Assembly (NCBI GenBank): GCA_026388315.1
Contig: JAPLKA010000049.1
Coordinates: forward strand, 1 to 64,000
DNA length: 64,000 nt
Source: Pseudomonadota bacterium
Lineage (GTDB): Bacteria > Desulfobacterota > Syntrophorhabdia > Syntrophorhabdales > Syntrophorhabdaceae
Direction of reading: 5' to 3'
Every line of letters starts with the position of its first letter. The stretch's first letter is position 1. The notes under the pieces were generated by a model. The model saw nothing but the letters and a program-made list of their open reading frames with translations, did not search any database and was not told where the DNA came from. Both the position numbers and the translations under genes were made by a program. This document shows, in pieces, positions 14,434 through 41,795 of this stretch.

Positions 14434-15375
14434 TCACACCATGGGTTTTTTCTTAACCGGCTTCTCCGGCACCGGTTCCGGGGCAATCGGTATCCGCAGT
14501 TCCACTAAGGCACAGAAAACATGCAGCTCATCAAGAAGCGTTACAAGATCGGGCCGTGTGTATTTTGCGAAGCCTGTCTCAATGCTTGACTCTACGGATC
14601 GCAAGTTGGCAATCTGCTTTGTCATAGGTATGAGCTTCGTTTTGCCCGGCTCCGACTTGACCTTCTTATATGCTGTAAGTAGATTGTTCAGGGTGGCATT
14701 AGTTACAGGTGTCTTCATGATGTTGGTAAATATCTGCATGCGGTCGGGACATTCGAGGTTGGCAGCGAAGAGATATCCCTGGGAAACGGAGAGATTTCCT
14801 TGCCGGATAGCAGCCTGAATCTCATCAGGCAATTTTAAGAGCGATAGCCCGTTAAACAGCGTATTTATTGACTTTCCGGTGATTTCAACAATTGCCCCAA
14901 CTGTTGGGGCAATTTTATCAGACAGATCCTCGGGTCTTCGTTTGTAACTTACCAAGTCATTCATCACTCCATCCACATCATAGGTTTTATCAGGTAATTT
15001 TGCCTGAATAAATGCCAATACCCCTTTTGCTTGGTCAATCGGGTTGAGGTCTTCTCTCTGAAGGTTCTCCGTCAGTTGGAAGGCAAGTATTTCATCTTTC
15101 TGAGTGATCTCATCAAGTATGCGCGCCGGTATTGTTGGGAGCCCCAGTTTCAGCGCAGCAAGATAACGGCGTTCTCCGCAGAGGAGCAAGTATTTGCCGT
15201 CTTTAGGTGTCACAAGGACAGGCTCTAAGACGCCCCGGTCTTTAATGGACTCCATAAGGGACTTAAAGGACTCACTCTCCGTATCGATGCTTGACCTGAT
15301 CTGTTCTTCAATAATAATATCCCCTAAGGACAGATACAGGAACTCTGGATTCTCAACTGTTTTCTTTGTTGCCAT
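14434..15375 (-). CDS. ParB/RepB/Spo0J-family DNA-binding protein
   Basis: The 313-residue product has the ParB N-terminal domain with LLCGERRYLAALKLG (box II type) and LTENLQREDLNPIDQAKG (box III), then a helix-turn-helix region around residues 165-190 (EITGKSINTLFNGLSLLKLP). Family members bind parS-like palindromes and many are CTP-dependent clamps. No parA neighbour exists, so this is an orphan ParB, probably of mobile-element origin. AAGGAGG precedes the ATG. The C-terminal tail is proline/lysine rich. A frameshifted relative lies at 41542-41795, and a 25-bp palindrome is embedded just before the HTH. Confidence 0.9.
   Translation of the reverse strand: MATKKTVENPEFLYLSLGDIIIEEQIRSSIDTESESFKSLMESIKDRGVLEPVLVTPKDGKYLLLCGERRYLAALKLGLPTIPARILDEITQKDEILAFQLTENLQREDLNPIDQAKGVLAFIQAKLPDKTYDVDGVMNDLVSYKRRPEDLSDKIAPTVGAIVEITGKSINTLFNGLSLLKLPDEIQAAIRQGNLSVSQGYLFAANLECPDRMQIFTNIMKTPVTNATLNNLLTAYKKVKSEPGKTKLIPMTKQIANLRSVESSIETGFAKYTRPDLVTLLDELHVFCALVELRIPIAPEPVPEKPVKKKPMV
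14890..14914. repeat. 25-bp perfect palindrome inside the ParB-like gene
   Basis: The 5' arm is AATTGCCCCAAC, the centre T, and the right arm is its exact complement. It encodes part of KIAPTVGAIVE just ahead of the helix-turn-helix. The corresponding site in the pseudogene copy (41686-41710) is also a perfect 12-bp-arm palindrome with different inner bases. Confidence 0.9.
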
Positions 15376-15498
15376 ATTATTCCTCCTTATTTAGTGAATA
15401 GTGAATAGTCGATAGTGAATAGTTAAAGACATTTTATTAACCTCATTGAAACATTACTGCCTTACACTCGCCCATTCCCAGGTGACTTAAACGTTGTT
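15376..15498. other. Bro-ParB gap with tandem words
   Basis: The 123-bp gap holds tandem AGTGAATAGTGAATAGT words (15388-15422) belonging to the dispersed short-word repeats seen at many gene borders in this window. No promoter or terminator is evident besides the parB ribosome-binding site. Confidence 0.5.
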
Positions 15499-16323
15499 TC
15501 ACTTCGGGAACCTTTTTTTCTCTTTCTGGGTTATCGCCAGATAATTTTCCGATGTAACAACCTTCTTCTTCGTTTCCTTCTCCAATTCTTGACGGGCGTC
15601 TCCGGCAATCCGGCCGCCTTTTCGGGCAGCGGTGCGATTCTTATCAAAACCCTGGGCGTCTTGTGTCCGGGTAATCTCCGTCGTGGCTGCTTCTCCCAGC
15701 ATAGAAAAGATCAATTCGAGATCGGTCATGTGATCCCTGAGGTTTTCACGCTCCAAACCCTTCAGGTCTTTGTACTCAGAAGGGGTTAGTCCGAACGTTG
15801 CCTTTGAGATTTCGGCGGTCAGTATAGCATATTCTCGTTCAGCACCCACTTCCCGGTTTTTCCATTCGTCGGTCAATTCGGCACGAACGGCTATACCACG
15901 CATTCTTTTCTCTATCCAGTCATCGGAATATCCCTTGGCCTTATAGAGCGCACGGGTCCTCTTTGTTCCCAGTTCAGGATCTTCGATCTCCTGCACCCGT
16001 TCATAGCCGACCTTTGCCAGCCAGCGTTTGAATGGCTCTGCCTTGGGGGAAGGAACGGATTGAATGATGCGGAAGAGGCCTTCGGTGTTGGCGCAAAGCA
16101 TGTTCTGAGCCCCGCCGAACGTTTCGATGGGAAGGGTATGTACAATTTGTACCCACCCTTTGCCAAGTTCGGGGTCGCGCTGCTTCATGCGCTGGATGTA
16201 CTGTTTTGGATCTCTGGAGTCGATCAGAGCCAATACAACATCTTCGACAACAAACCACCATTCATTGTTGTAAATCGTCTTCCTGATTCCTTTGCCTCTG
16301 AAAACCGCTATGTGAGATTCCAA
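15499..16323 (-). CDS. Bro-N domain protein (phage antirepressor-like)
   Basis: In this 274-residue protein the first ~110 residues form a Bro-N domain (IRKTIYNNEWWFVVEDVVLAL, then NTEGLFRIIQSVPSPKAEPFKRWLA), the DNA-binding module of phage antirepressors and baculovirus Bro proteins. The C-terminal half is helical and charged (EREYAILTAEISKATFGLTP, DLELIFSMLGEAATTEITR, then KNRTAARKGGRIAGDARQELE), a layout seen in bacterial chromosomal Bro proteins of unknown role. It is probably co-transcribed with the ParB-like gene, 123 bp downstream. There are no other phage genes nearby. Confidence 0.88.
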   Translation of the reverse strand: MESHIAVFRGKGIRKTIYNNEWWFVVEDVVLALIDSRDPKQYIQRMKQRDPELGKGWVQIVHTLPIETFGGAQNMLCANTEGLFRIIQSVPSPKAEPFKRWLAKVGYERVQEIEDPELGTKRTRALYKAKGYSDDWIEKRMRGIAVRAELTDEWKNREVGAEREYAILTAEISKATFGLTPSEYKDLKGLERENLRDHMTDLELIFSMLGEAATTEITRTQDAQGFDKNRTAARKGGRIAGDARQELEKETKKKVVTSENYLAITQKEKKRFPK

Positions 16324-16465
16324 ATTACCCCCTTTTTATCGTTTGTTTTTACTTTTGCAATACGCAATTGAACTTTCGCGATTCCCATCTTAATTCCCCC
16401 TGCAGTTCAATGTCATGGTATCCCTCCGTATAAAAAAATACAATCATAAAATCGTTGTAACACAG

Positions 16466-16520
16466 ATGGGTGACAACTGTATGTCAGTCTATATCCTGTT
16501 TGCGAAAAAAAAATAAAAAA
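16466..16520. repeat. 55-bp direct repeat, copy 2
   Basis: Matches 14078-14130 with only a few substitutions and two extra A residues in the A tract. It lies 143 bp upstream of the Bro-N gene. The inverted repeat TGACA-N8-TGTCA is kept and a -35-like CTGACA is retained on the minus strand, but the -10 position (TGTGTT) is poor, so promoter function is less clear than for copy 1. Confidence 0.75.
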
Positions 16521-16977
16521 AGTGGTCTTCCGGGAAGGCTATGGACGTAATATTCGGGCATTAAATAAACGTAACAGGGACGTCGTGATGCTTGATTGGT
16601 AACATAATGCAATTTTGAGTGTTGAATTTTGAATTTTGAGTTGAAAACATTATAAAAAATCCTAACTCTTTGAAATAAAAAATACAACCATATAAAAAAG
16701 ATTATGGTGATGAAGCAACCGCTTTCAAGATTCATGGCTACCCGGGTTGTGATGGATCGAAAATCATGACCGGGGTCGGCACTCCGGGAGAGATTTTCCG
16801 CCACATTGTCGGAAACTACTGAAATCTCCGGAAAGTCAATGCAGAAGCTGTTTTACAAGATTTTACTTTTTCAGAGAAACTGGCTGGGGTCAAATCTTTA
16901 TCCTTGACTTTGGCAAACAGCAATCTAACCAGCGAGCAGTGCGAGCTTGAGGGGGTGGCTCTGCCAGCTTTGCTGGT

Positions 16978-17029
16978 GGAGGGGGCGACCCCCTTACGGG
17001 GACAGGCGCAAGCCGCTGTAATAGAGGGT
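16978..17029. repeat. Hairpin repeat, copy A
   Basis: Contains GGGGG-CGA-CCCCC followed by TTACGGGGACAGG and ends TGTAATAG; a run of 29 bases is identical to copy B at 41915-41962. The flanking CCAGC-TTT-GCTGG also folds. The second copy lies beside the ParB pseudogene, linking both to one accessory unit. Confidence 0.75.
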
Positions 17030-17232
17030 GGCTTATTTAAGGACGGATCTGCTTGTTGATATAAGGGGCGGAGACAATGTCACAATGAGATTAGGCGCTC
17101 CTGAAAACAGGATATTGTCCTGACGCCCCGGCAAAATAATCTCTACACCGGTATTTGGACTGGTGATCATGGTTCCGCCCGTTACATGATTTCATTTTGT
17201 CGATAATTTGTCAACTAATACCTGTAATTTTC

Positions 17233-17592
17233 TCAGAGATTGTATTTCTTTCGGAAAAACTCGTACGCTTCCATGATTGCTTTAGTTTTTCTCTCTGCCA
17301 TTTCTTGAAATTCTATTCCCAGATGCTGCACCTTATCGGGGTGATATTTCGCGAGGAGCTCTTTATATTTCTTTTTGATGGTTGCCAGCCTGTCTTCGGC
17401 TGTGACCCCTAAAACCTGTCGATACTCCTCTTCTGTACTTGCATGTTCCCAGTTCTGGTACTGATAGCCGCCCCTTTCACTTCTTTGATACATCACTTCT
17501 TTGAGCATTTTTATTAAGTAACGAAAGATGAGGTAGCCCGCTACGATGAAAATGATGATTGTCACAAAACGCATCATTGACCTTTTCCCCAA
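17233..17592 (-). CDS. Membrane-anchored DnaJ-domain protein
   Basis: A 119-residue protein with one N-terminal membrane segment (FVTIIIFIVAGYLIFRYLI) and a C-terminal J-domain: YRQVLGVTAEDRLATIKKKY, the HPD motif in KYHPDKV, and the final helix. This DjlA-like layout would place the J-domain in the cytoplasm to recruit DnaK to the membrane. No zinc or substrate-binding domain is present. The neighbours suggest no specific partner. Confidence 0.88.
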   Translation of the reverse strand: MGKRSMMRFVTIIIFIVAGYLIFRYLIKMLKEVMYQRSERGGYQYQNWEHASTEEEYRQVLGVTAEDRLATIKKKYKELLAKYHPDKVQHLGIEFQEMAERKTKAIMEAYEFFRKKYNL

Positions 17593-17631
17593 ACTGTTAC
17601 GATATATACCCCCTGCTGTTAGACACTATCC

Positions 17632-18231
17632 TCACGTTATTATTATAATTTTTAGAAATATAAAATCAGAGCGGGCAAACTCTTCTCCGTCCAGTAAAAT
17701 ACTGCGATTTACAGCCTTTCCATCAAAAATAATGTCACTGCACCCGACCCGGAAGGTTTCCGGCTGTCTTTTTAAAAACTGTATGATCTCATCCGCTTTT
17801 ACCATTATGCCTCTCTGGAGGAAAACCGGCCCCAGCTCATCAATAAGGAGGTTAAACAGCTTTACTCTGATGATCCCTTCCGTGTCGTCCCGGTATACAT
17901 CGTCTTTTTCCTCATAGGTAATGGAACTCCTCAGAGTCGCATATACGCTGTCCCGTCTCAGGGTAGCCCCCGCAAGGCCTGGCATGGCAGAGGAAAGAGC
18001 CAGGGTTGACCCTTCTTTGATAACTGCCCTTTCGATATTGTCAACACAACTGCCATCGAGAAAAACGGTTGTGATTCTTTCGTTTACATACCGAGGATTC
18101 AGCCCAAGCCCTCCGGAAAGCAACGCGTTGATGCTTATGCCTGTACGGCATTTTACAAAGAATCCGCTTTGCAGGATCTCATAAAATCTATGCATCAATG
18201 AAGGTTGTATGCTTAAACAGAGATTTTTCAT
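17632..18231 (-). CDS. Conserved hypothetical protein downstream of the aldehyde oxidoreductase
   Basis: The 199-residue product is not recognised. Visible features: GISINALLSGGLGLNPRYVN, FLDGSCVDNIERAVIKEG and LALSSAMPGLAGATLRRDS resemble a beta-strand-rich fold in which a metal or small-molecule cofactor could be handled, and no signal peptide or membrane helix is seen. It follows the AOR gene on the same strand, but a terminator-like hairpin (18241-18272) separates them. A role with the tungsten enzyme is only a guess from position. Confidence 0.65.
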   Translation of the reverse strand: MKNLCLSIQPSLMHRFYEILQSGFFVKCRTGISINALLSGGLGLNPRYVNERITTVFLDGSCVDNIERAVIKEGSTLALSSAMPGLAGATLRRDSVYATLRSSITYEEKDDVYRDDTEGIIRVKLFNLLIDELGPVFLQRGIMVKADEIIQFLKRQPETFRVGCSDIIFDGKAVNRSILLDGEEFARSDFIFLKIIIIT

Positions 18232-18240
18232 AGTATGAAG

Positions 18241-18272
18241 AAAAGAAAGAGGCCCCTTGCCGAACCTCTTTC
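18241..18272 (-). terminator. Rho-independent terminator after the AOR gene
   Basis: On the minus strand AAGAAAGAGG and CCTCTTTCTT form a 10-bp stem around a 12-base loop, followed by a T-rich run (TTCTTC). It lies 26 bp after the AOR stop. Confidence 0.7.
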
Positions 18273-18297
18273 TTGAGCTACATCGTTCTTTATTGGT

Positions 18298-20034
18298 TTA
18301 CCAATCAAATACCGAATCGTGTTCCTCATCAGGAACATCGAATACAACATTGTGCGGAGGAAGAGGTTCTGTTCTGAAGAATCCCGGTAACCTGTCATGC
18401 TCTTTCGAGAAGCCTGCACGCATGTTGAAGTCCCTCTCCGTCTTCAGGACACTTTTACCTAACGCAACAACATCATCGGCCGTTAAGCTGAGTCCGTAGA
18501 AGGCGTTAAGCATATCGATTAAAGCCTGGAAAGTCTCAGGTTGATCCATAATTGCAAAGGCGATAAAGAGACACATGCCTGTAGAGTCAATGGCAGCGGT
18601 TGCAATCTGAAGGTTCCTGGAAAGCTCTATCTGTCCTTCGGCTTTCAACGGGTCAACATATCCTCCCACCTTCAGGATATTCGTTGCCGTTGCATAACCC
18701 GCGGTATGGTCTGCACCCATCGTGCTTGTAGCATACGTTACACCAAGCCCTTTCACTGCCCTGGGGTCATAGGCCGGCATTGCCTGACCTTTTACAACAG
18801 GCACCCTTTCAACGCCAAAAACCCTGCCTGTAATTGCTGCGCCGCTCCCGATAATACGTCCAAGAGGGGAGCCCTTGCCGACTTCCTTTAAAAGATTGAT
18901 AGCCCCGTCGGCATCGCCGAACTTTAACAGACCACCGTCCATAGCCACCCCGATGGCTACCCCCACTTCTATCGTATCAAGTCCTGTATCGTCGTCAATA
19001 AAGTCCATCAGGGCTATTTTATCAAGATCATCAATTCCACAGTGTGCGCCATGGGCCCAGACTGTTTCATACTCCGGTTGTTTGGTTACATAATGCCCGT
19101 CTTTATCATTGTAAATTCCGGAACAACGTATGACACACCCGCTATGACACCCATGAGTAGCCAATCCACCGCGCTCTGTCTCTAATGCCGCCTCTGTCTC
19201 TCCACTTATCTTTGAAGCCTCCGCAAATGTTCCCTCTTTGAAGTTATAGGCAGGGTACCCACCTGCCTCGTTAAGAATGTTGGTAAGGACATTTGTGCCA
19301 TACGCAGGCAGGGCTTCGCCTGTGACCCCGTGTTTCCGGAGCCCTTCAACAAAAATCTTGTTCGCTTCCCGAAATTTTTCAGGGTCTTTCGGCGGACGCA
19401 TGTGCAAGCCTGCATCGTCGAGCACAATAACCTTAACACCTTTCGAGCCCATGACAGCGCCCACACCACCGCGCCCTGCATGACGGGTTGGCCTCAGCTC
19501 CATGTCAGTACATGCAATCGAGGCTGCACTCAGCTTCATTTCCCCGGCCTGGCCTATAGAGATGCAGGCAATCTTATCGCCATACTCATTTTTCATCTTT
19601 TCTACCACAGCATAATTACCGAGCATTTTCAGGCTATTATCGACAGAGATATTGATTCCATCCTTATTGATAAAAATCTTGTAGAGATCGTCGCCTTCTG
19701 GTTTCCCCTCCAGTACAATCGCTGCATACCCGAGTCTTGCAAGCACCTGCGACGGTTGTCCTCCTGCGTTGGCCTCCTTGATGCCGCCTGTCAGAGGACT
19801 TTTGCATCCAATGGAGATCCTCCCTGTCATGGCGCCCACCGTGCCGCTTAACATGCCCGGGGCAATAACAAGCTTATTCTCTGCACTTAATGGATGGCAA
19901 ACAGGTAAAACTTCTTTTGAGATGAGAGCGGATGTAAATGCCCGTCCACCCAAACCTGCATATCCGCCGAGCGGGCCTTCAGAGATTCTTGGACCACCTT
20001 CGGCCCCCATATCTATCCTGACTATCTTGTCCAT
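18298..20034 (-). CDS. Aldehyde:ferredoxin oxidoreductase family protein (tungstopterin)
   Basis: A 578-residue AOR-family enzyme. The N-terminal pterin-binding region reads GGYAGLGGRAFTSALISKEV; the [4Fe-4S] cysteines are visible as CHSGCVIRC with a distal cysteine in TGMCLFIAF. RHAGRGGVGAVMGSKGVKVI is also typical. It interconverts aldehydes and carboxylates with ferredoxin as the electron carrier, a role common in anaerobes that ferment amino or aromatic acids. Slightly shorter than the classic ~605-residue enzymes. The real substrate cannot be read from sequence; with iorAB nearby, amino-acid-derived aldehydes are plausible. Confidence 0.92.
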   Translation of the reverse strand: MDKIVRIDMGAEGGPRISEGPLGGYAGLGGRAFTSALISKEVLPVCHPLSAENKLVIAPGMLSGTVGAMTGRISIGCKSPLTGGIKEANAGGQPSQVLARLGYAAIVLEGKPEGDDLYKIFINKDGINISVDNSLKMLGNYAVVEKMKNEYGDKIACISIGQAGEMKLSAASIACTDMELRPTRHAGRGGVGAVMGSKGVKVIVLDDAGLHMRPPKDPEKFREANKIFVEGLRKHGVTGEALPAYGTNVLTNILNEAGGYPAYNFKEGTFAEASKISGETEAALETERGGLATHGCHSGCVIRCSGIYNDKDGHYVTKQPEYETVWAHGAHCGIDDLDKIALMDFIDDDTGLDTIEVGVAIGVAMDGGLLKFGDADGAINLLKEVGKGSPLGRIIGSGAAITGRVFGVERVPVVKGQAMPAYDPRAVKGLGVTYATSTMGADHTAGYATATNILKVGGYVDPLKAEGQIELSRNLQIATAAIDSTGMCLFIAFAIMDQPETFQALIDMLNAFYGLSLTADDVVALGKSVLKTERDFNMRAGFSKEHDRLPGFFRTEPLPPHNVVFDVPDEEHDSVFDW

Positions 20035-20148
20035 GGTTTCACCTCTCTGTAAAGATTTTGAATATTACATCATTTTGCAATTTTACACCATATACATCCT
20101 TTTGCAACAGAAAATACAGCGCTTCACCCTTTTCGTGTCAGACAGGCA

Positions 20149-20568
20149 TCAATATTCTTCCGAATCCGGCTTGTAAGTGCGTGCCTGTTTCCTGGCAGAT
20201 TGTATGTGCTTCAGTTGAAGGACCTTCTCCTTTGCCCTTTTCGAGCGTTTCCTTTTTTGTCTCCTTATCTTCTCGATCTGCTGCTGTTTCTCGCTCTCCT
20301 CACCGAGAACCATACTCTCGATCTTTTCTACTAATATACGGCGTGCTAAAAAACGGTTCAACGATTGTGATCGCTCCTGCTGGCATTTCACTTCAATGCC
20401 GGTAGGTAGATGCTTTAAGTACACGCATGTAGATGTCTTATTCACCTTTTGACCACCATGCCCCTGAGAACGGACAAATCGCTCAAGGATATCCGATTCT
20501 CTTATCCCCAATTGCTCCATCCTTCCCTGGAGTGCACCCACTTTTTCCGGACTGACAATATATTTCAT
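20149..20568 (-). CDS. GGQ-domain peptide chain release factor-like protein
   Basis: A 139-residue protein with the release-factor catalytic signature: RSQGHGGQKVNKTSTCVYL contains GGQ. It lacks the codon-recognition domain of RF1/RF2 and ends in a long basic helix (QKRKRSKRAKEKVLQLKH), as in ribosome-rescue hydrolases (ArfB-like) and related RF-H-type proteins. It should hydrolyse peptidyl-tRNA on stalled or drop-off ribosomes. I set the start at MKYIVSPEKV because the upstream codons are not typical of the family. Confidence 0.85.
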   Translation of the reverse strand: MKYIVSPEKVGALQGRMEQLGIRESDILERFVRSQGHGGQKVNKTSTCVYLKHLPTGIEVKCQQERSQSLNRFLARRILVEKIESMVLGEESEKQQQIEKIRRQKRKRSKRAKEKVLQLKHIQSARKQARTYKPDSEEY

Positions 20569-20647
20569 AATTCCCCGCATAGAGCATAGCACATAGCGTT
20601 TTTTAATTCTTTTACGCCGTGTACTCTGTGTTGTCGTTGCCTACCGC

Positions 20648-21394
20648 TCACCGCTCACCGCTTAGCCCAGTTATAAACTTTAAAATTGCCTTATTCACTT
20701 CTTCCGGTTTTTCCAGCATTACCATGTGGCCGGCGTCTTTAATGAGAACAAGTTCTGACCCTTGTATGCTTTCATGGAGGTATCGGGAATATTTCGGCGG
20801 AGTGAGGACATCGTCTGTTCCGCAGATAATAAGGGTCGGAACATTGATCGAGCCTATGGTCTTCATAATGTTAAACCTGTCGCAGGCATAAAAATCATTA
20901 TAAACCACTTCAGGCCTGCACTTCATCATTTCATCGAAGCAATCCTTTTTTAATGAGTCCGGCGCGTTTTTTGAAATGGCAAATTCTATAATACTGCGGA
21001 GCGTTTTTTCCTTGTCTTTCATGATCCCTTCAAGTATCTCAGGAAAAACCCTCAGCCTTGCCCCTGTACCCACAAGCATGATACCTTTTACAATATCAGG
21101 GAAAGATAACGCACAGGACATGGCTATAGCGCCACCCATGGAATGACCCACCATGTAGCACCTGTCAATACCTGATAATTTTAACGCCCTGTAAACACTA
21201 TCTCTGTACTCATCTATTGCGTCGCACCCATCGCTATCTCCTGCTCTGCCGTGCCCGGGAAGGTCAATAAGCATAACCCCAACGGATGTTTTCAGATATT
21301 CCATCTGATAAAACCATGCCTTTGCACTCCCTCCGGCGCCGTGGATGAACAGAACATTTTCACCTGTCCCGTATCTCTCTAATTCAGTCTCCAC
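20648..21394 (-). CDS. Alpha/beta hydrolase
   Basis: A 248-residue alpha/beta-hydrolase with an oxyanion region FIHGAGGSAKAW, the nucleophile elbow GHSMGGAIAMS, the acid in CGTDDVLTPP and the catalytic histidine in DAGHMVMLEKPEEV. No signal peptide, so it is cytoplasmic. The substrate is unknown; C-C bond hydrolases and esterases share this pattern. The last residues (GLSGER) are encoded by a CCGCTCACCGCTCACCG tandem-word repeat, so the stop position has been set by the repeat. Confidence 0.9.
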   Translation of the reverse strand: METELERYGTGENVLFIHGAGGSAKAWFYQMEYLKTSVGVMLIDLPGHGRAGDSDGCDAIDEYRDSVYRALKLSGIDRCYMVGHSMGGAIAMSCALSFPDIVKGIMLVGTGARLRVFPEILEGIMKDKEKTLRSIIEFAISKNAPDSLKKDCFDEMMKCRPEVVYNDFYACDRFNIMKTIGSINVPTLIICGTDDVLTPPKYSRYLHESIQGSELVLIKDAGHMVMLEKPEEVNKAILKFITGLSGER

Positions 21395-21449
21395 ACAAAC
21401 CTCCAGAATTCTGTTGAAATGCGTAAATGATTAATTATATTATGACGAC

Positions 21450-21725
21450 ATGAGGTTTTTTACAATATTTCTGTGCCTGTTTTTTCTTTTCTCTTGCAAT
21501 AAGGCCACCGAAGTAACGACAACAAAACAAAAACCGGCCGAAGAGCAGACCTCTGATACAAATTATAAGAAAGAAATAGATGAGATAAGGAAAAACCTGA
21601 AAAGCGAAGTGAAGATTAAGTTGAAAAAGGATGTAAAGGGCGGTTATGGCTGGGAAATAGCAGGTAAGGACGCCCAGGAAATACTCAAGACAAACGACAC
21701 ATTAAGAAAAAAACTCGATAATTAG
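21450..21725 (+). CDS. Small lipoprotein of unknown function
   Basis: 91 residues. It has a signal peptide with lipobox (LFFLFSC; lipidated Cys near residue 16) and then a charged, lysine-rich segment (KKEIDEIRKNLKSEVKIKLKKD). No domain recognised. It diverges from the hydrolase gene and is followed on the same strand by a DUF4177-like gene. Confidence 0.75.
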   Translation: MRFFTIFLCLFFLFSCNKATEVTTTKQKPAEEQTSDTNYKKEIDEIRKNLKSEVKIKLKKDVKGGYGWEIAGKDAQEILKTNDTLRKKLDN

Positions 21726-21798
21726 GACTACGGGTTTAAAAATCCAGAATGATGAATTAATATATAAGAAAGACTGAAAAAACACGAGGTAATATAGT

Positions 21799-22059
21799 AT
21801 GGCATATGAATACACCATAAAGATTTTTTCAATGGATGATCTTGAAAAGGAAAGCATTGTGGTAGACGCTGAAAAGAATATCGTGTATGCATGCAGACCC
21901 GCCGGAGAGTGTGAGATTCACGACGTGGGCATGGAACAACTTGAAAATCTCTCAAAATTGTTTAACAAAATGGGGGTCGAGGGATGGGAGTTGGTACAAC
22001 TTTTTTTCCGACCCATGGGTATTGTAAGCTTCTGGAAACGACATTCGCCGCCAGCTTAG
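21799..22059 (+). CDS. DUF4177-like small protein
   Basis: 86 residues, cytoplasmic. The C-terminal part (LSKLFNKMGVEGWELVQLF) has the GWELV pattern typical of DUF4177 and related small alpha/beta proteins; function unknown. GAGGTAATAT precedes the ATG. Confidence 0.7.
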   Translation: MAYEYTIKIFSMDDLEKESIVVDAEKNIVYACRPAGECEIHDVGMEQLENLSKLFNKMGVEGWELVQLFFRPMGIVSFWKRHSPPA

Positions 22060-34310: not shown

Positions 34311-34392
34311 GCAGGCGCAAAAGCATTGATACAGTTTTCGCTATGATTTCTTGACACAAGTTGCCTTATCTGCTATCTAAAGGTTTATATTC

Positions 34393-35637
34393 ATGAAATT
34401 CACTTACTTCCTTATGTTTATCATGCTTTTTGCAGCATATTCCGCTGCGGGAAATAACGAAAGCTGCATTCAGTGCCACACAGATGAATCGATCATGAAA
34501 TCACTTGTAGAGATACCCATTACTAAAGGAAATACCGGTTCAAACGCTGCTATCGGTCCGGCCGGACCACCCCCTTTAATCAGGTCTGAAACTTACTATA
34601 AGAGGTACTACATCGACAAGGTTGTACTCGATAAAGACCCGCATTTTGGAAACGGGTGCACCACCTGCCATAAGGGTGATGAGAAATCGACTGACCAGGA
34701 AAAAGCACACAAAGGTATTGTAAAGAGACCTTCTGCCGATTTAAAGGTGTGCGGCGACTGTCACGATGACATTGCCAAAACCTATCAGAGCTCATTGCAT
34801 TATACAGCTCAGGGGCTACTCAGCAAGATATCCAGAAGGTTCTCAAAAAAAGAGGAGAAGGTTTTTACAGAAAAGGCCTTCGGGCAATCCTGCAAGAGCT
34901 GCCACGCCTCGTGCGGTGATTGCCATGTCAGCTCACCGGCCATCGACGGAATACGGAACAGTTTTTTAAGCGGACACAGGTTTGTGAAAAAGGATGAAGG
35001 GAAGACCTGTGCCGTCTGCCATGGCGGAAGCATCTACCCGGAATATACCGGTAAATACAACGGGAGTCCCGATGTTCACTACCAAAAAGGACTAATGTGC
35101 ACAGACTGCCACAAAAAAGGACATCTCCACGGCGACGGCAATGTATACGCAAACAAGGACGATGTGAAGAACCGCCCAAAGTGCAAAGATTGTCACAAAA
35201 TAGGAGCAGAGAAAAAAACCACAGCAAGATTAGCCCATTCAAAGCATGATGGAAAGGTAAGTTGTTACGGATGTCATGCCCAGGATGAATACCGTAACTG
35301 CTCCGGTTGTCACGAAGGAAAGACTTCTTCTTCGAAGACCGGTTTTATCCTCGGCGCTGATCCGGGAAATAATAAGCTCCTTACCACCTTACGGTTGATA
35401 CCCATCTCACGGGAGACCTTCCTGAAGGCAGGCATAAGGATGGAGCAATTTGATGCGGTCACAGATTACAGGGCCACCCCTGTTCACAACATAAAAAAGA
35501 TAACCGGGAGAACCCGCTCATGCGATGTGTGTCATGTAAATAAAAAGGGATTTCTCACAAAGGAGTCGCTTATAAAAAACGGCTCGAAGGCCAATGAAAG
35601 TCTGATTTTCAGGATGCCTCCTTTGGATATCAACTGA
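34393..35637 (+). CDS. Eleven-haem periplasmic c-type cytochrome
   Basis: A 414-residue protein with a signal peptide (YFLMFIMLFAAYSAAG) and eleven CXXCH motifs spread along the chain: CIQCH, CTTCH, CGDCH, CKSCH, CGDCH, CAVCH, CTDCH, CKDCH, CYGCH, CSGCH and CDVCH. Extra lone histidines between them can serve as sixth ligands. No membrane anchor, so it is likely a soluble periplasmic electron shuttle or reductase. It does not resemble a named reductase family that I can confirm. 82 bp follow the previous stop; the rhodanese gene follows at once. Confidence 0.9.
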   Translation: MKFTYFLMFIMLFAAYSAAGNNESCIQCHTDESIMKSLVEIPITKGNTGSNAAIGPAGPPPLIRSETYYKRYYIDKVVLDKDPHFGNGCTTCHKGDEKSTDQEKAHKGIVKRPSADLKVCGDCHDDIAKTYQSSLHYTAQGLLSKISRRFSKKEEKVFTEKAFGQSCKSCHASCGDCHVSSPAIDGIRNSFLSGHRFVKKDEGKTCAVCHGGSIYPEYTGKYNGSPDVHYQKGLMCTDCHKKGHLHGDGNVYANKDDVKNRPKCKDCHKIGAEKKTTARLAHSKHDGKVSCYGCHAQDEYRNCSGCHEGKTSSSKTGFILGADPGNNKLLTTLRLIPISRETFLKAGIRMEQFDAVTDYRATPVHNIKKITGRTRSCDVCHVNKKGFLTKESLIKNGSKANESLIFRMPPLDIN

Positions 35638-35651
35638 ATAAGGGAAAAGTG

Positions 35652-36410
35652 ATGACAAGCGAACTCCACAATTTCAGAAAAATAGCGAACATTGTAATCA
35701 ACATTGCTATCCTGTTTTTCTTTCTTTCCTGTACTGCCACCCCTCCCCGGACGAGTGAACAAAAATACATAAACCCGGAAAAAGTTATCTCTCTGATAAA
35801 AGAAAAGAAGGCTGTGGTTGTTGATACGATGAGTTATCTCGAATGCATGGATCACAGGATACCGGGTTCTCTCTGCATAGCCCTTGAAGAGTTTGAAAAC
35901 AAATCACCTGCGTTGCTCAAGGACAAGAAGCAGACCACAATCTTTTACTGCGAATCAGAAGAATGTCCAAGGGCAGGCTTGACATATGAGAAGGCCAAAA
36001 CTGCCGGCTATGAAGACATATACATCCTTGAAGGTGGGCTGTCGGCATGGAAAAGAACGGGCTATGAGGTGGAAACAGTTGAGCGGATTAAAAGAGCGCC
36101 TGTAGTGTCCATCAAACCCCGTGTGCTAAAGGCTCTGGCAATGGAAAAGAAAGGCCTGTTCGTCCTTGATATCCGTTCTGAGGATGCATTCAAGGCAGGT
36201 CACATAGATGGTGCGATCAATATCCCCCTCTACACATTACATAAAAAACTCAAAGAAATACCGAAAAACCGGCCTGTCATTGTCGTTGATGAGAGCGGGA
36301 AAAGGTCCTTTCTCGCATGTTGTTATCTCATCAATAACGGTTTTAAGGATGTGGTAAGGCTCTATGGGGGGATGAAACACGAAGAACCCCGGAAGGGGAA
36401 AAAGGGATAG
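35652..36410 (+). CDS. Tandem-rhodanese lipoprotein
   Basis: A 252-residue protein with lipobox (FFFLSC) and two rhodanese domains. The first has cysteines in the active-loop region (FYCESEECPRAGLTYEKA); the second has the fold landmarks (VLDIRSEDAFKAGHIDGAINIP; VVDESGKRS) but no cysteine in the loop, so it is probably inactive. A periplasm-facing sulfur-transfer or sulfide-binding protein within a haem cluster suggests either sulfur chemistry or help in keeping haem cysteines free. It sits 3 bp before the next gene. Confidence 0.86.
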   Translation: MTSELHNFRKIANIVINIAILFFFLSCTATPPRTSEQKYINPEKVISLIKEKKAVVVDTMSYLECMDHRIPGSLCIALEEFENKSPALLKDKKQTTIFYCESEECPRAGLTYEKAKTAGYEDIYILEGGLSAWKRTGYEVETVERIKRAPVVSIKPRVLKALAMEKKGLFVLDIRSEDAFKAGHIDGAINIPLYTLHKKLKEIPKNRPVIVVDESGKRSFLACCYLINNGFKDVVRLYGGMKHEEPRKGKKG

Positions 36411-36413
36411 TAT

Positions 36414-38270
36414 ATGACAGATAAAAGCTGGACTATAGCCCTTTTGCTCTCTGTTTTTCTTTTAATGCTTTCCGGCCACGCCTACCCCTCCAACGTAAAG
36501 ATAAACTGTACAGACTGCCATGACAACAATAAATTCAAGACCCACTACAAAGGATCGGTACATGGAAATATCGGGTGCACAGGCTGTCATACAAGCTTCG
36601 AGAGTTTAGACAGACATGTCATTTTAAAAGAAAAACCTCTTCTGGTCTCCTGCGGAAAATGTCATAGTGAGGTTGAAAAGGCATACAAAAACAACTTCCA
36701 TTACCTCTATGAGGATTTTCGTTGCTATGACTGTCACTACGAAATCCACTCACTAAAACCGGAAAAAGACAACTTCAAGATCGCCGTAACGAAAAACTGC
36801 ACAAAATGTCACGCCAACAATGAGTATGTTCTATCAGGTCATGGCGCTGCAGTCATGAAAGGGAATAAAGATTCAGCAACATGCAGTGACTGTCACGGTT
36901 TGCACGATACAAAGGCTTACCATACGTCCAGCGAGAAGTATGCCCTGGAGGCGCGGGAATTTTACAACAGGACGTGTAAGTCCTGCCACTCTGACAGGGA
37001 AATGATGAAACGGAATAACCTTTCCCCTGATACCGTCAAATACTATGAAGAAACATATCACGGCAAGGTACAGGATTTGGGATACCCCACAAGCGTTGCC
37101 GGGTGCGCGGACTGCCATACCACACACAATATCCTTGCAAAAGACCATCCTGACTCGTCAATAAACCCGAAGAACCTGACAAAGAACTGTGAAAAGTGCC
37201 ACCATGGAATACATCCACGCTTTGCCGAATACAAGGCACATCCCGATTACAAAGACAGGAAAAGATACCCATTGTTGTACCTAAGTTTTATCACCATGGT
37301 AGCACTCCTCCTGACAACATTCGGTTTCTACTGGACCCACACCCTCCTCTGGTGGAGAAAAGTTTACTGGGAAAAACATAGACTGGAAGAACTCGGTATA
37401 AAGCCTGAAAGCCCATTTACCCATGAAGAAGGTATTCAGGAAATCAGGCGGTTTTCAATAAAAGACCGCGTGATGCACCTCCTTCTGATTCTTTCCTTCT
37501 TCGGTCTCGTCATAACCGGTTTTCCCATAAAATACCACAGTACGCCCTGGGCAAAAGTCCTCATTCAGGTTATGGGTGGAGCCCATAACGCAGGCTTGTA
37601 CCACAGGGCGGCAGCAATCGTTCTTATCGGGCTGTTTTTTATTGCCCTGTGGAGATGTCTCCATTTTATCTTTCCGAAGGGTTTCGGCAGAGAAGGGAGG
37701 AAAGGATGGATGGAGAGGCTCTTCGGACCTGATTCCCTTATGCCTAATATCCATGACTGGCAGCAGTTCAAGGGTATGGTAAAATGGTTTTTCAACAAAG
37801 GTGAATACCCGAAGTTCGATAGATGGACCTACTGGGAAAAATTTGACTTTCTTGCCATCTTCTGGGGTATGGTTATCATCGGTGGTTCAGGGATCACCCT
37901 GTGGGCCCCGGAAACGGCATCGTATATATATCCCGGATGGGTCTTTAATATTGCAAGTATCTTTCATTCTGAAGAAGCGCTCCTGGCGGCCATCTTCATA
38001 TTCACGGTCCATTTTTTTAATACACACCTTATTCCTACGAAATTTCCCATGGACCCTATCATCTTTACGGGCAGTTATAAACTCGAGGAATTATGGAGAT
38101 TCAGAACCCTTGAATATGAAAGGTTGGTGAGGGAGAAGAAACTTGATGACCTGAAGATCAAACACCCGGGCATATCGTTGAAGCTTATCTCGTCCATGTT
38201 CGGCCACGCGAGCCTGTGGATTGGCCTTCTTTTTACCCTTATTCTCCTGTGGACCTTCTTCTTTGCCTAA
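36414..38270 (+). CDS. Nine-haem cytochrome c fused to b-type cytochrome (CbcL-like quinol oxidoreductase)
   Basis: 618 residues: signal peptide, nine CXXCH motifs in residues ~25-265 (CTDCH, CTGCH, CGKCH, CYDCH, CTKCH, CSDCH, CKSCH, CADCH, CEKCH), then six or so membrane helices with b-haem histidines (DRVMHLLLILSFFGLVITGF; AGLYHRAAAIVLIGLFF; FHSEEALLAAIFIFTVHFFN). The same architecture is known in CbcL of Geobacter, an inner-membrane menaquinol oxidoreductase of extracellular electron transfer. It is the last gene of this cluster and shares its direction and tight spacing. Confidence 0.9.
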   Translation: MTDKSWTIALLLSVFLLMLSGHAYPSNVKINCTDCHDNNKFKTHYKGSVHGNIGCTGCHTSFESLDRHVILKEKPLLVSCGKCHSEVEKAYKNNFHYLYEDFRCYDCHYEIHSLKPEKDNFKIAVTKNCTKCHANNEYVLSGHGAAVMKGNKDSATCSDCHGLHDTKAYHTSSEKYALEAREFYNRTCKSCHSDREMMKRNNLSPDTVKYYEETYHGKVQDLGYPTSVAGCADCHTTHNILAKDHPDSSINPKNLTKNCEKCHHGIHPRFAEYKAHPDYKDRKRYPLLYLSFITMVALLLTTFGFYWTHTLLWWRKVYWEKHRLEELGIKPESPFTHEEGIQEIRRFSIKDRVMHLLLILSFFGLVITGFPIKYHSTPWAKVLIQVMGGAHNAGLYHRAAAIVLIGLFFIALWRCLHFIFPKGFGREGRKGWMERLFGPDSLMPNIHDWQQFKGMVKWFFNKGEYPKFDRWTYWEKFDFLAIFWGMVIIGGSGITLWAPETASYIYPGWVFNIASIFHSEEALLAAIFIFTVHFFNTHLIPTKFPMDPIIFTGSYKLEELWRFRTLEYERLVREKKLDDLKIKHPGISLKLISSMFGHASLWIGLLFTLILLWTFFFA

Positions 38271-38588
38271 CCAGCCCATAAATTCAAAACGGCTTGTTAC
38301 CTTCCTGTCTTTGTTGTCTGTATTCCCTGGCCTGCTTTAAGACCTTTGCACGGTAAAACAACTTTACAGGAAGGAGTGTGTGCCTGCGAGTTAGCACCTA
38401 CCGTTGATGTTTGAAAACCCTCAGATATAGATTGTTACCATGAGAAAGAGAGAACACAAAGATTAACGGGGGCTGCAAGACGTCCGCTGGATTTTTTTGT
38501 CAGGCGATAATTTTTTTCTCATTGCCCCTCTGTCCCCATAATCATAATCATCCAAAGATTAGCCCCTCATCTACCGTCCCCTCTTTCT
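38271..38588. other. Intergenic stretch without identified gene
   Basis: 318 bp between the CbcL-like gene and the FlgM-like fragment. I see no coding sequence, terminator or strong promoter; T-rich runs occur at 38492-38520. Confidence 0.5.
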
Positions 38589-38696
38589 ATGGTGGATAGC
38601 ATCAAGGAAGCGATACAAAACGGCACCTATAACGTAAAAGGCGAACTGGTAGCAAGGGGTATCCTCAAGAACAGCCTCCTGGATGAGATACTCTAA
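38589..38696 (+). pseudogene. FlgM-like C-terminal fragment
   Basis: A 35-codon reading frame, MVDSIKEAIQNGTYNVKGEL followed by a helix, matches the anti-sigma-28 core pattern of FlgM (IKxAIxxGTYxV..). A full FlgM has ~90 residues, and no upstream part is visible, so I treat it as a remnant. It converges on and overlaps the end of the acetolactate synthase gene by 4 bp. No flagellar gene is in view. Confidence 0.45.
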
Positions 38697-40369
38697 TTCC
38701 CCACTTCCTCATTCACGGCTGCACAAAGACTCTGATTGCCGCTATAGTCAATGGGAATATCAACAATCACGGGCCCGGTCAGATTAAGGGCCCTTGAAAG
38801 GACAGTGGCAATCTCGCCGGCACTGTTGATCCGCAACCCCGTTGCACCGAAGGATTCAGCAAATTTCACAATGTCCACGTTTCCAAACTCTACACCAAAG
38901 GAGCGGCCATACTTGAGCTGCTGCTGTATTTTTACCATATCATAGCTCCCGTCCCGCCATACGAGATGGACAAAATTACACTTTTCGCGTACCGCTGTTT
39001 CCAGCTCCATTGCCGAGAACAGGAACCCTCCGTCCCCTGACATGGAGATTACCTTTTCTCCCGGACGCGCAAAGGTAGTTGCAATTGCCCAGGGGAGAGC
39101 TACCCCTAATGTTTGCTGTCCGTTGCTGAATAGCAACCGGTGTGGTTCATAGCTGACAAAATATCTGGCCATCCATACATATATTGAGCCGATATCGCAG
39201 ACCACAGTGACATCGTCACCTATGAGATTTCTCAGTTCGTAGATGAGCCGCAGGGGGTGTACGGGGAACCCTGATTGTCTTGCGCCCAGCGCCTTTGTTT
39301 CAAGGAGGGCATCCTGAACCTCCATTACCAAGGGGTTTGCCGTGGGGTCATCAGCGCGTGGTTTGAGATACCTGGCAAGTTCGTTAATATTTGTCGCGAT
39401 ATCACCAAGCAGTTCCATTTCGGGCTGATAGTGCCTGTCAATAACAGGGATGTGTTCATCTATGCTGATAATAGTCCCGTCTCTGCCTTTGTTCCATGTT
39501 TCGGGGTCGTATTCAACGGGGTCAAATCCAACGGTGATTACCACATCAGCCCTTTTTAAGAGCCTATCGCCCGGCTGGTTCTGGAATATTCCGAGACTGC
39601 CGGCATAACAGTTAAAGAGTTCCCTGGGAAGTACACCGGATGCCTGGTAGGTATTAACAAGCGGCATGGGATATTCGTTCAGCAGCCCTCTTAATGCCTG
39701 TGCTACTTCACGCCTGCTCGCAAAAACCCCCGCAAAAACAACAGGCGTTTTTGCAGCATTGATGATCGCGGCAGCCTTTTTCACATCGTTCACATTGAAG
39801 GTGCCTCCTCCGCCCGCCCGCGCGGCTTTGATCGGAACGGCATCGACAGCTCCCATAAGGATATCCTGGGGAAGGCTGATGAATGAAGCGCCTAACGGCG
39901 GCAAGGTACTCTGACGGAAGGCGTTCACCACAACCTCGGGGATGCTGTTACCGTCATAGACCTCAACGGCATATTTGGTAACGGGCTGCATGACCGCAAT
40001 ATTATCAAGGCATTGATGTGTTTTTATATGTCGCATCCCGCGCCGGACGTTTCCTCCCAGGGCAACGAGGGGGTATCCGTCACATGTGGCAGTTGAGAGG
40101 CCCGTGGTAAGATTGGTCACACCCGGACCCGATGTGGCAAGGCATACCCCCGGCGTGCCCGTTAAAAGGCCGAACATCCCTGCCATAAATGCCGCATTTT
40201 GTTCATGACGGCACAATATTAAACGCGGACCATGGTCTGCAAGCACATCGAATATGGTGTCTACCTTTGCGCCTGGAATGCCGAAAATATATTGAACACC
40301 CTGTCCTTCAAGGCATTGTACCAGTAATTCTGCCCCGTTCCTTGCCTTAGAAGTGTTTTTACTATTCAT
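38693..40369 (-). CDS. alsS: Acetolactate synthase, catabolic (AlsS-like)
   Basis: A 558-residue thiamine-diphosphate enzyme: FGIPGAKVDTIFD, the catalytic glutamate in CRHEQNAAFMAG, the TPP/Mg motif MSGDGGFLFSAMELETA and KYGRSFGVEFGNVD. It condenses two pyruvates to 2-acetolactate. The neighbouring decarboxylase gene points to the acetoin route rather than valine synthesis, although 2-acetolactate feeds both. Alternative: another pyruvate-family TPP enzyme. Preceded by GGAGGGTATCC; 49 bp after the decarboxylase gene. Confidence 0.9.
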   Translation of the reverse strand: MNSKNTSKARNGAELLVQCLEGQGVQYIFGIPGAKVDTIFDVLADHGPRLILCRHEQNAAFMAGMFGLLTGTPGVCLATSGPGVTNLTTGLSTATCDGYPLVALGGNVRRGMRHIKTHQCLDNIAVMQPVTKYAVEVYDGNSIPEVVVNAFRQSTLPPLGASFISLPQDILMGAVDAVPIKAARAGGGGTFNVNDVKKAAAIINAAKTPVVFAGVFASRREVAQALRGLLNEYPMPLVNTYQASGVLPRELFNCYAGSLGIFQNQPGDRLLKRADVVITVGFDPVEYDPETWNKGRDGTIISIDEHIPVIDRHYQPEMELLGDIATNINELARYLKPRADDPTANPLVMEVQDALLETKALGARQSGFPVHPLRLIYELRNLIGDDVTVVCDIGSIYVWMARYFVSYEPHRLLFSNGQQTLGVALPWAIATTFARPGEKVISMSGDGGFLFSAMELETAVREKCNFVHLVWRDGSYDMVKIQQQLKYGRSFGVEFGNVDIVKFAESFGATGLRINSAGEIATVLSRALNLTGPVIVDIPIDYSGNQSLCAAVNEEVGN

Positions 40370-40418
40370 GGATACCCTCCTTTTTAGCGGGTAAATCTCT
40401 TTCCGTTCGGGGATGCGG

Positions 40419-41267
40419 TCATTTTTCTGCTTTATCTAAATCCTTACCGATGTCCCGTGTCAGATCAGCGGTGAGATAGTCAAGTGTGACAGGCAAGCCT
40501 ACATCGAGTTTCGGTACATGCTGAACGCCTATGCGCGCCTTTTTCAACGAACATTCAATTAAATGGCCGCCGTGCCGACGGTCTTCCGTGAGGAAGTGCA
40601 GGTGATAACCCGGCGCATTGAGCGATTCCATAAAGCGGGGGGTATAGAATCCGGCAAGGCAGCCCTGAACATCATAGAAATCAAAAACGGGCTGGTTCTT
40701 TGTCGCCTCAACGAGCGGCTTATAATTTTCCGACCGTGGAACCGCCCTGGTTCTGACATGGCTGAATGTACCATCAATCCGAATTGCATAAAGCATATTT
40801 TCTGAAGGAATGAGTGTGTTAAGGAGGTCATAAAATCCCTTGGAGCTGTGGTTTTCCTCAATGTCATCAAAGGTGTCGGGGTTAAAGAAGGTGACACAGG
40901 CAAAGGGCGACCCTTCATCATCTTTCACATCGTAAACATTACCATCAGACCTTATCTGGTAGACAATTCCATCAAGAATAACCATCTCCCCATCAAGGTA
41001 ATTGAACGTTCCCAGGCCAAAGTCGCCATGTTCCTTTATAAGGGCCATGGTGGTGTTCGCTACATAAAGACCCTCAACGAGCGCATTGATGGGCGCGGAG
41101 AGAAACACGGCATTAGCTCTCTGTTCATCGGAAAGGAATCTTCTAAGTGCCTGTTCGGTCAGGACAGCTGCCGAAAACCCCGTACGTTCCGCTGAAATCG
41201 TGAGCTGCTTCAGCAGATCGTCCGGTAAAAAAACCTCAAGTTTTGAAAGGGCTGGGTTGTCAATCAT
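40419..41267 (-). CDS. Alpha-acetolactate decarboxylase with N-terminal ribbon-helix-helix-like domain
   Basis: 282 residues. From ~50 on it is an acetolactate decarboxylase: LVEGLYVANTTMALIKEHGDFGLGTF, FSHVRTRAVPRSENYKPL, and the zinc ligands in GYHLHFLTEDRRHGGHL. It converts 2-acetolactate to (R)-acetoin. The first ~45 residues, KLEVFLPDDLLKQLTISAER plus a second helix, have the strand-helix-helix pattern of CopG/Arc-type DNA-binding proteins, not part of the usual enzyme (about 235-260 residues). A palindrome (41321-41330) upstream may be its operator. Confidence 0.88.
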   Translation of the reverse strand: MIDNPALSKLEVFLPDDLLKQLTISAERTGFSAAVLTEQALRRFLSDEQRANAVFLSAPINALVEGLYVANTTMALIKEHGDFGLGTFNYLDGEMVILDGIVYQIRSDGNVYDVKDDEGSPFACVTFFNPDTFDDIEENHSSKGFYDLLNTLIPSENMLYAIRIDGTFSHVRTRAVPRSENYKPLVEATKNQPVFDFYDVQGCLAGFYTPRFMESLNAPGYHLHFLTEDRRHGGHLIECSLKKARIGVQHVPKLDVGLPVTLDYLTADLTRDIGKDLDKAEK

Positions 41268-41320
41268 AGTTTTCCTGGAACTTTCTCAATTTTTATGTCC
41301 AAAAGGGTACTTATTGTATA

Positions 41321-41330
41321 ACTATATAGT
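41321..41330 (-). promoter_or_regulatory. Palindrome upstream of the decarboxylase gene
   Basis: ACTATATAGT, a perfect 10-bp palindrome, 54 bp before the start and containing -10-like TATAGT. A possible operator for the RHH-like domain; short enough to be chance. Confidence 0.35.
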
Positions 41331-41541
41331 CGTGTAGAAATTTGCTTTTCAGCTTGCGATATGAATAACACAAGAAAGGCAAACTATCAATACGAACGTA
41401 CCGAGTTTTATGGTCAAAAACTCAATAATATCTACCCGTGTGTTGATTGCCAATTATAATGTTGTTACGTATAGCAGTTAATAATTACCAATTCAAAAAC
41501 TGGATATTCTACGAAAATCAAAAGCTGTTTAGTACAGGAAG
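41331..41541. other. Non-coding AT-rich gap
   Basis: No gene, promoter or repeat that I can support between the palindrome and the ParB remnant. Confidence 0.5.
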
Positions 41542-41795
41542 GGACAATCGAGGGAGGCGGCGAAGAGATACCCCTGTGAAATGGGGAGATTTCCCTGCTG
41601 AATTGCCGCCTGAATCTCATCAGGAAGTTTTAATAGCGATAACGTGCAAAACAAGGTGGGATAAGACTTTTTCGGAGACTTCAATAATTGCTTTCACTGT
41701 GAAAGCAATTTCCTCCGATATGTCTTCTGGCCTCCGTTCGTAAGCCACCAACTCGCTCATAAGGCTGTCCACACTGTACCCCTTACTCTGCCTGT
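41542..41795 (-). pseudogene. ParB-like gene remnant
   Basis: Minus-strand translation reads SVDSLMSELVAYERRPEDIS and EEIAFTVKAIIEV, then after a one-base frameshift near 41660-41670 LSLLKLPDEIQAAIQQGN and ISQGYLFAA. This matches residues ~125-215 of the ParB-like protein at 14434-15375 (VDGVMNDLVSYKRRPEDLS, LSLLKLPDEIQAAIRQGN). Both ends are missing. It marks a second, decayed copy of the accessory unit. Confidence 0.88.
41686..41710. repeat. 25-bp perfect palindrome inside the ParB remnant
   Basis: Arms AATTGCTTTCAC and its exact complement around a central T. The core TTTCAC-T-GTGAAA is the classical parS half-site pair (TTTCAC/GTGAAA) with one extra central base. It lies at the position homologous to 14890-14914. 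Confidence 0.9.

Follow-up and report, generated by a model that had tools for sequence, protein, structure and literature searches.

The window analysed here is a stretch of 64,000 nucleotides (positions 1 to 64,000 of contig JAPLKA010000049.1, assembly GCA_026388315.1) in a 3.8-Mb draft genome of 131 contigs, referred to below as G000. Our subject is an open reading frame (ORF) on its minus strand that encodes a ParB-like protein (P0001, 313 amino acids, 14434-15375), the palindrome that lies within this ORF, and the dispersed gene family to which both belong. Palindromes with two fully paired 12-bp arms around one central base occur exactly twice in the window, against 0.0033 expected per window (300 block shuffles), and both are read on the minus strand. 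Palindrome 1 (14890-14914; AATTGCCCCAAC T GTTGGGGCAATT) runs from the last base of codon 154 to codon 162 of P0001 and is predicted to be a self-encoded binding site, while palindrome 2 (41686-41710; AATTGCTTTCAC T GTGAAAGCAATT) lies within a ParB-family fragment of about 245 bp (41541-41785, minus strand). A first-pass annotation of this DNA had described both as perfect palindromes with 12-bp arms and a central T, placed at the same codons of two gene copies. The palindromes stand as described, and their minus-strand codons match (IAPTVGAI in the first, IAFTVKAI in the second). Of the two copies, the first is the open 313-residue ORF, whereas the second is decayed, with a broken frame; over most of query positions 1142-1386, its DNA is 70-78% identical to that of family copies.

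P0001 belongs to the ParB/Spo0J superfamily, as its score against TIGR00180 is 92.6 bits (cut-off 58.45). Pfam identified ParB_N (1.6e-13, 51 bits, cut-off 26.3) followed by a helix-turn-helix (HTH) domain, HTH_ParB (6.3e-8, 33.1 bits, cut-off 22.6), and nothing else in P0001; no transposase, integrase or nuclease domain was found in the repeated unit. The closest relatives in the PDB are Spo0J, ParB, Noc and KorB (8qa8). P0001 falls outside Noc proper, with 87.5 bits against the NCBIfam nucleoid_noc cut-off of 315 bits, and PADLOC returned just a weak MTase_II match across the ParB domain. GERR and ENxQR are cytidine triphosphate (CTP)-binding motifs of the ParB type; ParB_N of P0001 carries GERR and ENLQRE, and G67-E68-R69-R70, E103-N104 and Q106-R107 are invariant in a 10-row alignment (A2). 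The family is under purifying selection, with a median dN/dS (ratio of nonsynonymous to synonymous substitution rates) of 0.12 in the N domain (344 usable of 500 sampled pairs). The palindrome had been placed ahead of the HTH; instead, the stretch appears to encode the first HTH helix, judging from the alignment and from a helix at residues 156-166 in an AlphaFold model of low confidence (predicted local distance difference test, pLDDT, 68.6; predicted template modelling score, pTM, 0.42). Most palindrome codons align without gaps to the first HTH helix of the three canonical ParBs in A2, and on this ground an inserted palindrome of the Rickettsia palindromic element (RPE) type was rejected. 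An extra segment just upstream of the palindrome, which holds residues 143-150, is lacking in these three canonical ParBs, in line with the longer half-site of the family.

Searches with P0001 gave 83 matches in G000, including four set aside as other ParB proteins. Among 99 relatives we found at least 23-25 matches in each of G002, G005 and G016, at least 15 in G010 and at least 7 in G011; these counts are lower bounds, as the whole-genome searches scored a limited number of candidates. The remaining relatives had at least 0-5 weaker matches, most of which fit ordinary ParB by identity and span. At E 1e-25 the family is present in six of 395 sampled genomes of the phylum (G000 included), all from one taxonomic family. 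Matches in phage records (96) and plasmid records (1986) all had less than 60% identity, the ten listed for each being at most 31.8% identical, and zero family loci were confirmed among 29 pattern stretches from IMG/VR. For comparative analysis, 90 of 112 matching ORFs from 107 loci were kept because they span the HTH region: 24 from G000, 21 from G002, 20 from G016, 19 from G005, four from G010, one from G011 and a further one, L203, from G032. The 89 family ORFs include cut and broken ones, and 68 of them have at least 290 amino acids.

A single gene makes up the repeated unit. Roughly half of the copies align over about 130 bp before the start and 60 bp past the stop, and hardly any align past about 430 bp before the start or 300 bp after the stop. 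At the DNA level, neither a ParA partner nor any other neighbouring gene is conserved within about 1 kb across the 89 oriented loci. Among 17 CbiA/ParA-type matches in G000, that at C44:20438 alone lies within 3 kb of an ORF copy, and it belongs to a separate ParA-ParB pair. The flanks of many family members contain heptad repeats (GTGAATAGTGAATAG after the gene, CTATTCACTATTCAC before it), with similar low-complexity runs inverted; runs of this kind are also present in relatives without the ParB-like family.

We found a 25-bp palindrome at the same HTH codons in 89 of the 90 sampled ORFs, with 8-12 of 12 pairs formed. The one exception is L203, which is 33% identical to P0001 and has 3 of 12 pairs, and the genes of seven canonical ParBs of other bacteria (L049-L055) contain no such palindrome. 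The sampled ORFs yield 75 distinct 25-mers, aligned without gaps, and their arm cores represent 59 sequences. Of the 600 cells at arm positions 4-11, 597 are paired, with 595 Watson-Crick pairs and 2 G-T pairs; pairing is nearly constant at positions 3-11, and positions 1-2 and 12 are often unpaired. The covariation score over all 12 pairs was 0.716; shuffling gave 0.175 +/- 0.013, and slid partners no more than 0.172. Two further covariation measures (both-side changes and further pair types) were not above shuffles. Arm base 7 and its partner, both of which are third codon positions, are paired in 75 of 75 sites and show all four pair types; thus, protein constraint cannot explain this pairing. 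The first-pass annotation had read the differences between the two window palindromes as a sign of selection on pairing, to be checked in homologues and to be abandoned if their arms proved unpaired at random. The strong covariation of the arms agrees with that reading, and random unpairing was not seen within the family.

The arm bases are also associated with residues of the protein. We calculated mutual information between arm bases and protein residues over 89 rows, and report the leading residues outside the palindrome codons. In the recognition helix (codons 170-175; 14851-14868, minus strand), residue 175 accounts for 88% of the entropy of base 10, and residue 171 for 77% of that of base 8 and 59% of that of base 9, residue 170 likewise covarying with bases 8-9. 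In the extra segment (codons 143-150; 14926-14949, minus strand), base 7 is associated with residue 145 (50%), base 6 with residue 143 (71%), base 5 with residues 150 (46%) and 147 (42%), and base 4 with residue 147 (34%). Of the rows with A at base 10, 45 of 46 have Asn175, and of those with C, 41 of 42 have Arg175; the single G is found with Ser. The lone ORF row that combines A with Arg175, L095, represents a copy that stops have broken. Pairing of Asn with A, and of Arg with C (where the opposite strand has guanine), is the classical arrangement. At bases 8-9, CC corresponds to Asn, Thr or Ser at residue 171, CT to Gln, AA or AT to Met, GA to Arg (one Lys), GC to Lys or Arg, TT to Pro and TC to Thr, with AC, GT and TG represented by single cases. 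T at base 5 occurs with Tyr150 in 16 of 16 rows. Residues 157 and 160, which are encoded by variable arm bases, are the second and third most variable of the 313. The earlier suggestion that specificity evolves together with the site is thus in keeping with the finding that individual arm bases track single residues of, or near, the HTH. In Caulobacter ParB, R173 and N178 touch parS (PMC7383237); with numbering transferred via the GKS motif, residues 170 and 175 here would occupy the equivalent DNA-facing helix positions. One family member, L211 (G016:C75), has the recognition-helix stretch TGKSINTLFNGLSLLKL duplicated in tandem and in frame.

These patterns make it very probable that P0001 is a member of a lineage-restricted, dispersed single-gene family in which each orphan ParB-type clamp recognises, and co-evolves with, a palindrome in its own HTH codons. 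A protein dimer would bind the palindrome inside its own gene, with the recognition helix (170, 171, 175) reading bases 8-10 and the extra segment (143-150) reading bases 4-7. CTP-driven clamp closure is established for the ParB family, and CTP would then close the clamp on the protein's own gene. As to use, the likeliest option in our view is that the loaded clamp might block or limit its own transcription as a form of private self-control, a suggestion that we make tentatively and hold less firmly than the claim of binding. From -840 to +600, as far as the loci reach, a second cognate palindrome was found in none of the 89 units, and the gene's own 9-nt arm had 0 matches in its own flanks, compared with 3.0 when shuffled. 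Just outside that range, the family ORF of L189 (G016:C89) has upstream of it a remnant that contains both a palindrome and a helix stretch of its own.

The site and the residues predicted to read it share a module of about 115 bp (codons 140-178; 14842-14958, minus strand), which comprises the putative outer-base reading residues, the palindrome and the recognition helix. Across 71 full-length rows (2485 pairs), module identity is uncorrelated with identity of the N part (r 0.03) or of the C part (r 0.02). For example, the flanking protein parts of L145 and L084 are 93% and 91% identical and their modules 41%, while L179 and L200 are 97% identical in the module and 39% in the C part. At matching loci of G002 and G000, flanks agree and palindromes differ. 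The window gene and its partner in G005 (L153), which has the same Bro-N neighbour, show a single-base difference in each arm (CCC to CGC), and Asn171 is changed to Lys and Lys145 to Asp, among further changes. As the site lies inside the segment that encodes its reader, recombination between copies can change site and reader together.

Palindromes also occur outside the ORF copies. The loci of G000 contain 85 such sites, including those in partial or contig-cut copies; a few are likely to be chance occurrences (e.g. C93:11227), and pairing at positions 4-11 was imposed by the site filter. A covariance model gave at least 134 strand-matches at E 1 over the whole of G000 (best 150 candidates scored). 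At E 0.1, again with the best 150 candidates scored per genome, it found 0 sites in G001, G003, G004 and G032 and two strand-matches in G006, all of which are genomes without the family. In the window, this model (R1, E 0.05) recovered an imperfect palindrome with 7 of 8 core pairs (16793-16817, plus strand), accompanied by the start of a recognition-helix remnant. A protein search used by itself identified 37 short fragments. Of these, 31 include at least part of the palindrome codons, compared with 10.6 expected and a maximum of 22 over 20,000 placements; residues 141-160 are among the most variable, yet the fragments centre there. By hand count, 35 of 40 distinct remnants that span the palindrome codons have 8 of 8 core pairs, counted at or within 60 bp of the expected place, while four have 7 and one has 5. 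The 40 are what is left of 44 candidate places once two coding copies (L077 and L089) and two duplicate palindromes are taken out. Orthologous remnants in G000 and G002 have flanks that are 91-95% identical, a rearranged intergenic part and different palindromes. Palindromes may persist in broken copies because they are used as sites, because they arose recently or because other copies convert them. We rejected a miniature inverted-repeat transposable element (MITE)-like element with fixed ends as the source of the remnants, as coverage falls off gradually on both sides.

The decayed window fragment (41541-41785) is missing beside the orthologous aminotransferase gene in G002, where a 93% match spans the aminotransferase side only, and no counterpart was found in the 1.5 kb adjoining that match. 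Short dispersed repeats flank the fragment (41335-41436 and 41864-41926) and turn up in many other genomes within the same taxonomic family and order, some of which lack the ParB-like family. In a different part of G000 (L213, C56, 11176-13600), palindrome pairs about 65-90 bp apart recur between small toxin-antitoxin-looking genes (nucleotidyltransferase-like and, by eye, BrnT/BrnA-like), as if these had been inserted between site-bearing repeats.

The remnants bear on a second proposal for use, which is compatible with self-binding and competes with self-control: the clamp would use the palindrome to spread or keep its gene. It might, for example, recruit host recombination or condensin, with the result that pieces centred on the palindrome would be copied to, or retained at, places around the genome. 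Such selfish dispersal fits the 19-24 ORF copies, besides many remnants, in each of four genomes, the repeated unit of one gene, the presence of the ParB-like family in just one taxonomic family among the sampled genomes, the concentration of short fragments over the palindrome codons, and the core pairs kept by most remnants. The protein has no recombinase, nuclease or transposase family, however, and the fragments have gradual ends and no fixed termini. The mechanism is hypothetical, and we regard selfish dispersal as possible rather than probable. If it holds, the gene could perhaps be described as self-addressed, a lone ParB clamp whose sole local loading site is the DNA encoding its own reading head. 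Recombination between copies might then issue a new matched address, and the remnants might be site-bearing pieces scattered or kept in the host genome; we offer both suggestions as speculation.

Symmetry could instead arise without selection, if one arm serves as the model for the other during template switching at quasi-palindromes. In favour of such a process, broken copies do keep symmetric palindromes. The symmetry, however, ends at fixed places, with positions 3-11 nearly always paired and positions 1-2 and 12 often not, and similarly so outside ORFs, where the filter imposes pairing at 4-11; moreover, template switching cannot yield a code that relates bases to residues. We therefore consider a mutational artefact very unlikely.

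The arms and the recognition helix are 30-60 bp apart, and the association between them might reflect co-inheritance without functional matching. The module does vary and move as a block, and the association partly survives in broken copies (bases 8/9, 4 and 5). Against this, the residue that is tracked differs between arm bases, and the association is much weaker for most of the variable residues nearby. On a tree of the protein minus the module, contrasts agree with the code in 12 of 12 cases for base 10, 11 of 11 for base 8 and about 9 of 9 for base 5, and are weaker for bases 6 (6.3 of 8), 4 (9.5 of 14) and 7 (5.1 of 8). As a control we used 52 distinct copies outside the ORF set with a readable helix, drawn from 112 sites (85 in G000 and 27 in G002); these sites were picked for palindromes, and the control therefore says nothing on palindrome loss. 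The base-10 rule, which holds in 86 of 88 ORF rows with A or C, holds in 26 of these 52 broken or partial copies (shuffled mean 21.6, maximum 32). This drop to near chance, in copies of the same spacing, indicates that intact genes are selected for a matched protein-site pair. Under a lenient rule, by which any residue seen with a given base in an ORF copy counts, agreement outside ORFs was 28 of 28 for base 4 with residue 147 (shuffled 24.3), 28 of 28 for 5/147 (25.7), 26 of 28 for 5/150 (21.3), 22 of 28 for 6/143 (21.8), 20 of 28 for 7/145 (15.8), 28 of 53 for 8/171 (19.0), 27 of 53 for 9/171 (24.2) and 42 of 53 for 10/175 (39.1). By this rule the link between base and residue is partly kept outside ORFs, being lost for base 6 and weak for bases 9 and 10. 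Linkage alone is, in our judgement, highly improbable as an explanation of the code.

An mRNA hairpin, in which the arms covary as the transcript must fold, is the least probable of these explanations: RNA helices also give covarying inverted repeats, and G-T pairs occupy 15 of 225 cells at positions 1-3, but the loop would be one to three bases, the arm bases track putative DNA-reading residues, palindromes persist in decayed intergenic pieces, and the rarity of G-T pairs in the core (2 of 600) favours a DNA dimer site over RNA. A search of Rfam with one site cluster (L228) returned 0 families.

Several observations weigh against self-binding and the matched code, and these results need to be interpreted with them in mind. 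The tree contrasts are not fully independent, since modules move between backbones, and whole modules inherited together could account for part of the association. Among the 52 broken copies, 25 follow the base-8/9 rule, which is weakened yet above shuffles (mean 15.2, maximum 27). Base 10 is tracked by residue 176 as well (74% of the entropy of that base), so that a strict correspondence of one residue to one base does not hold. Mosaicism is not special to the module, since there is hardly any correlation between the N part and the C part of the protein (0.16). Shared cores are not avoided within a genome (15 of 853 pairs, compared with 32 of 3063 between genomes), which speaks against strict orthogonality. 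Broken copies retain palindromes despite a dead or mismatched reader, which self-binding within the same gene fails to explain. Cores outside ORFs are hardly richer in cognates from their own genome (21 of 85, compared with 16, 15 and 19 for three other genomes); there is no clear enrichment of the kind to be expected if the remnants served resident proteins as cognate sites. Finally, the AlphaFold model of P0001 is weak, and autorepression of the gene is a proposal made from sequence-based data.

The family shares its ParB_N CTPase-type motifs, HTH_ParB domain and palindromic site with the chromosomal ParB-parS systems (Spo0J, Caulobacter ParB) and with Noc and its binding site (NBS). It differs from chromosomal ParB-parS in having no conserved ParA partner, in the extra segment before the HTH, and in its roughly twenty ORF copies per genome, with 59 site cores at HTH codons. 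Chromosomal parS is a 16-bp site, and the family sites, at 25 bp with one central base and 59 different cores, do not conform to that type. It had been proposed that the TTTCAC/GTGAAA arms equal parS half-sites; against the parS consensus the six inner bases do match, but the rest of the arms do not, and an extra base separates the halves. KorB of plasmid RK2 (PDB relative 8qa8) is likewise a ParB-family protein with an HTH, and is a transcriptional repressor whose operator is a palindrome with a central base. In that system one protein serves many like operators, mostly near promoters, whereas the present family has numerous proteins, and the site of each lies within the gene that encodes it.

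A site within a ParB-family gene is known from other systems. In Bacillus subtilis, parS-359 lies within parB (PMC4442127), and a parS inside the repB coding sequence has been reported for repABC plasmids, on which RepB, also a ParB-family protein, has plasmid-specific sites in one cell (PMC4492784). RepB is encoded in an operon with repA and repC on plasmids, while the family has no conserved operon, and its site keeps a constant place within the HTH codons, with which it covaries. Divergence of ParB specificity is known as well (PMC7383237). Kaljevic et al. (2025) describe orphan ParB-fold proteins outside parAB operons, tied to mobile elements and rapid diversification; neither self-encoded sites nor a multicopy family dispersed in this way is mentioned in the abstract, the start of the introduction or section 5 of that survey (PMC12704722). 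In the titles and opening lines of abstracts of the open-access literature, which leaves most subscription journals outside, and in the passages cited here, we found no multicopy ParB family with self-encoded covarying sites. What appears to be new, as far as this literature shows, is the set of dispersed copies, each with a covarying site in its HTH codons.

With its 89 protein-site pairs and 59 distinct cores, the family provides a data set made by nature; as each site lies within the gene, sequence alone gives both protein and target. It offers a testable base-by-residue recognition code for the HTHs of ParB proteins, and a way to approach the problem of how protein and site can evolve in concert without a loss of function on the way. 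Sets of distinct ParB-site pairs for use in DNA labelling could also be drawn from it. Selfish dispersal, if true, would represent a new means by which a single gene tags and propagates itself.

Upstream of P0001 in the window is a Bro-N gene (15499-16323, minus strand; Pfam Bro-N 6.9e-13), a neighbour that lies outside the repeated unit. A Bro-N gene also adjoins a family member at G005:C61, with 80% identity over query positions 1562-3435, a span that covers both genes. Genes for Cse1 and Cas3 of a CRISPR system (9133-13316) adjoin the ParB-like gene of the window, with an exonuclease gene in between. An 11/12 palindrome at 7061-7085 (CATGTGCTTCTTCAAGAAGCGCATG) has a centre unlike that of the family and is probably due to chance (0.15 expected at 11 or more pairs). 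In G000, a different ParA-ParB pair lies upstream of a family member at L084 (C44, about 4436-6147) and is missing at the matching place in G002 (L143), the two loci differing by 1712 bp between flanks that are 87-96% identical.

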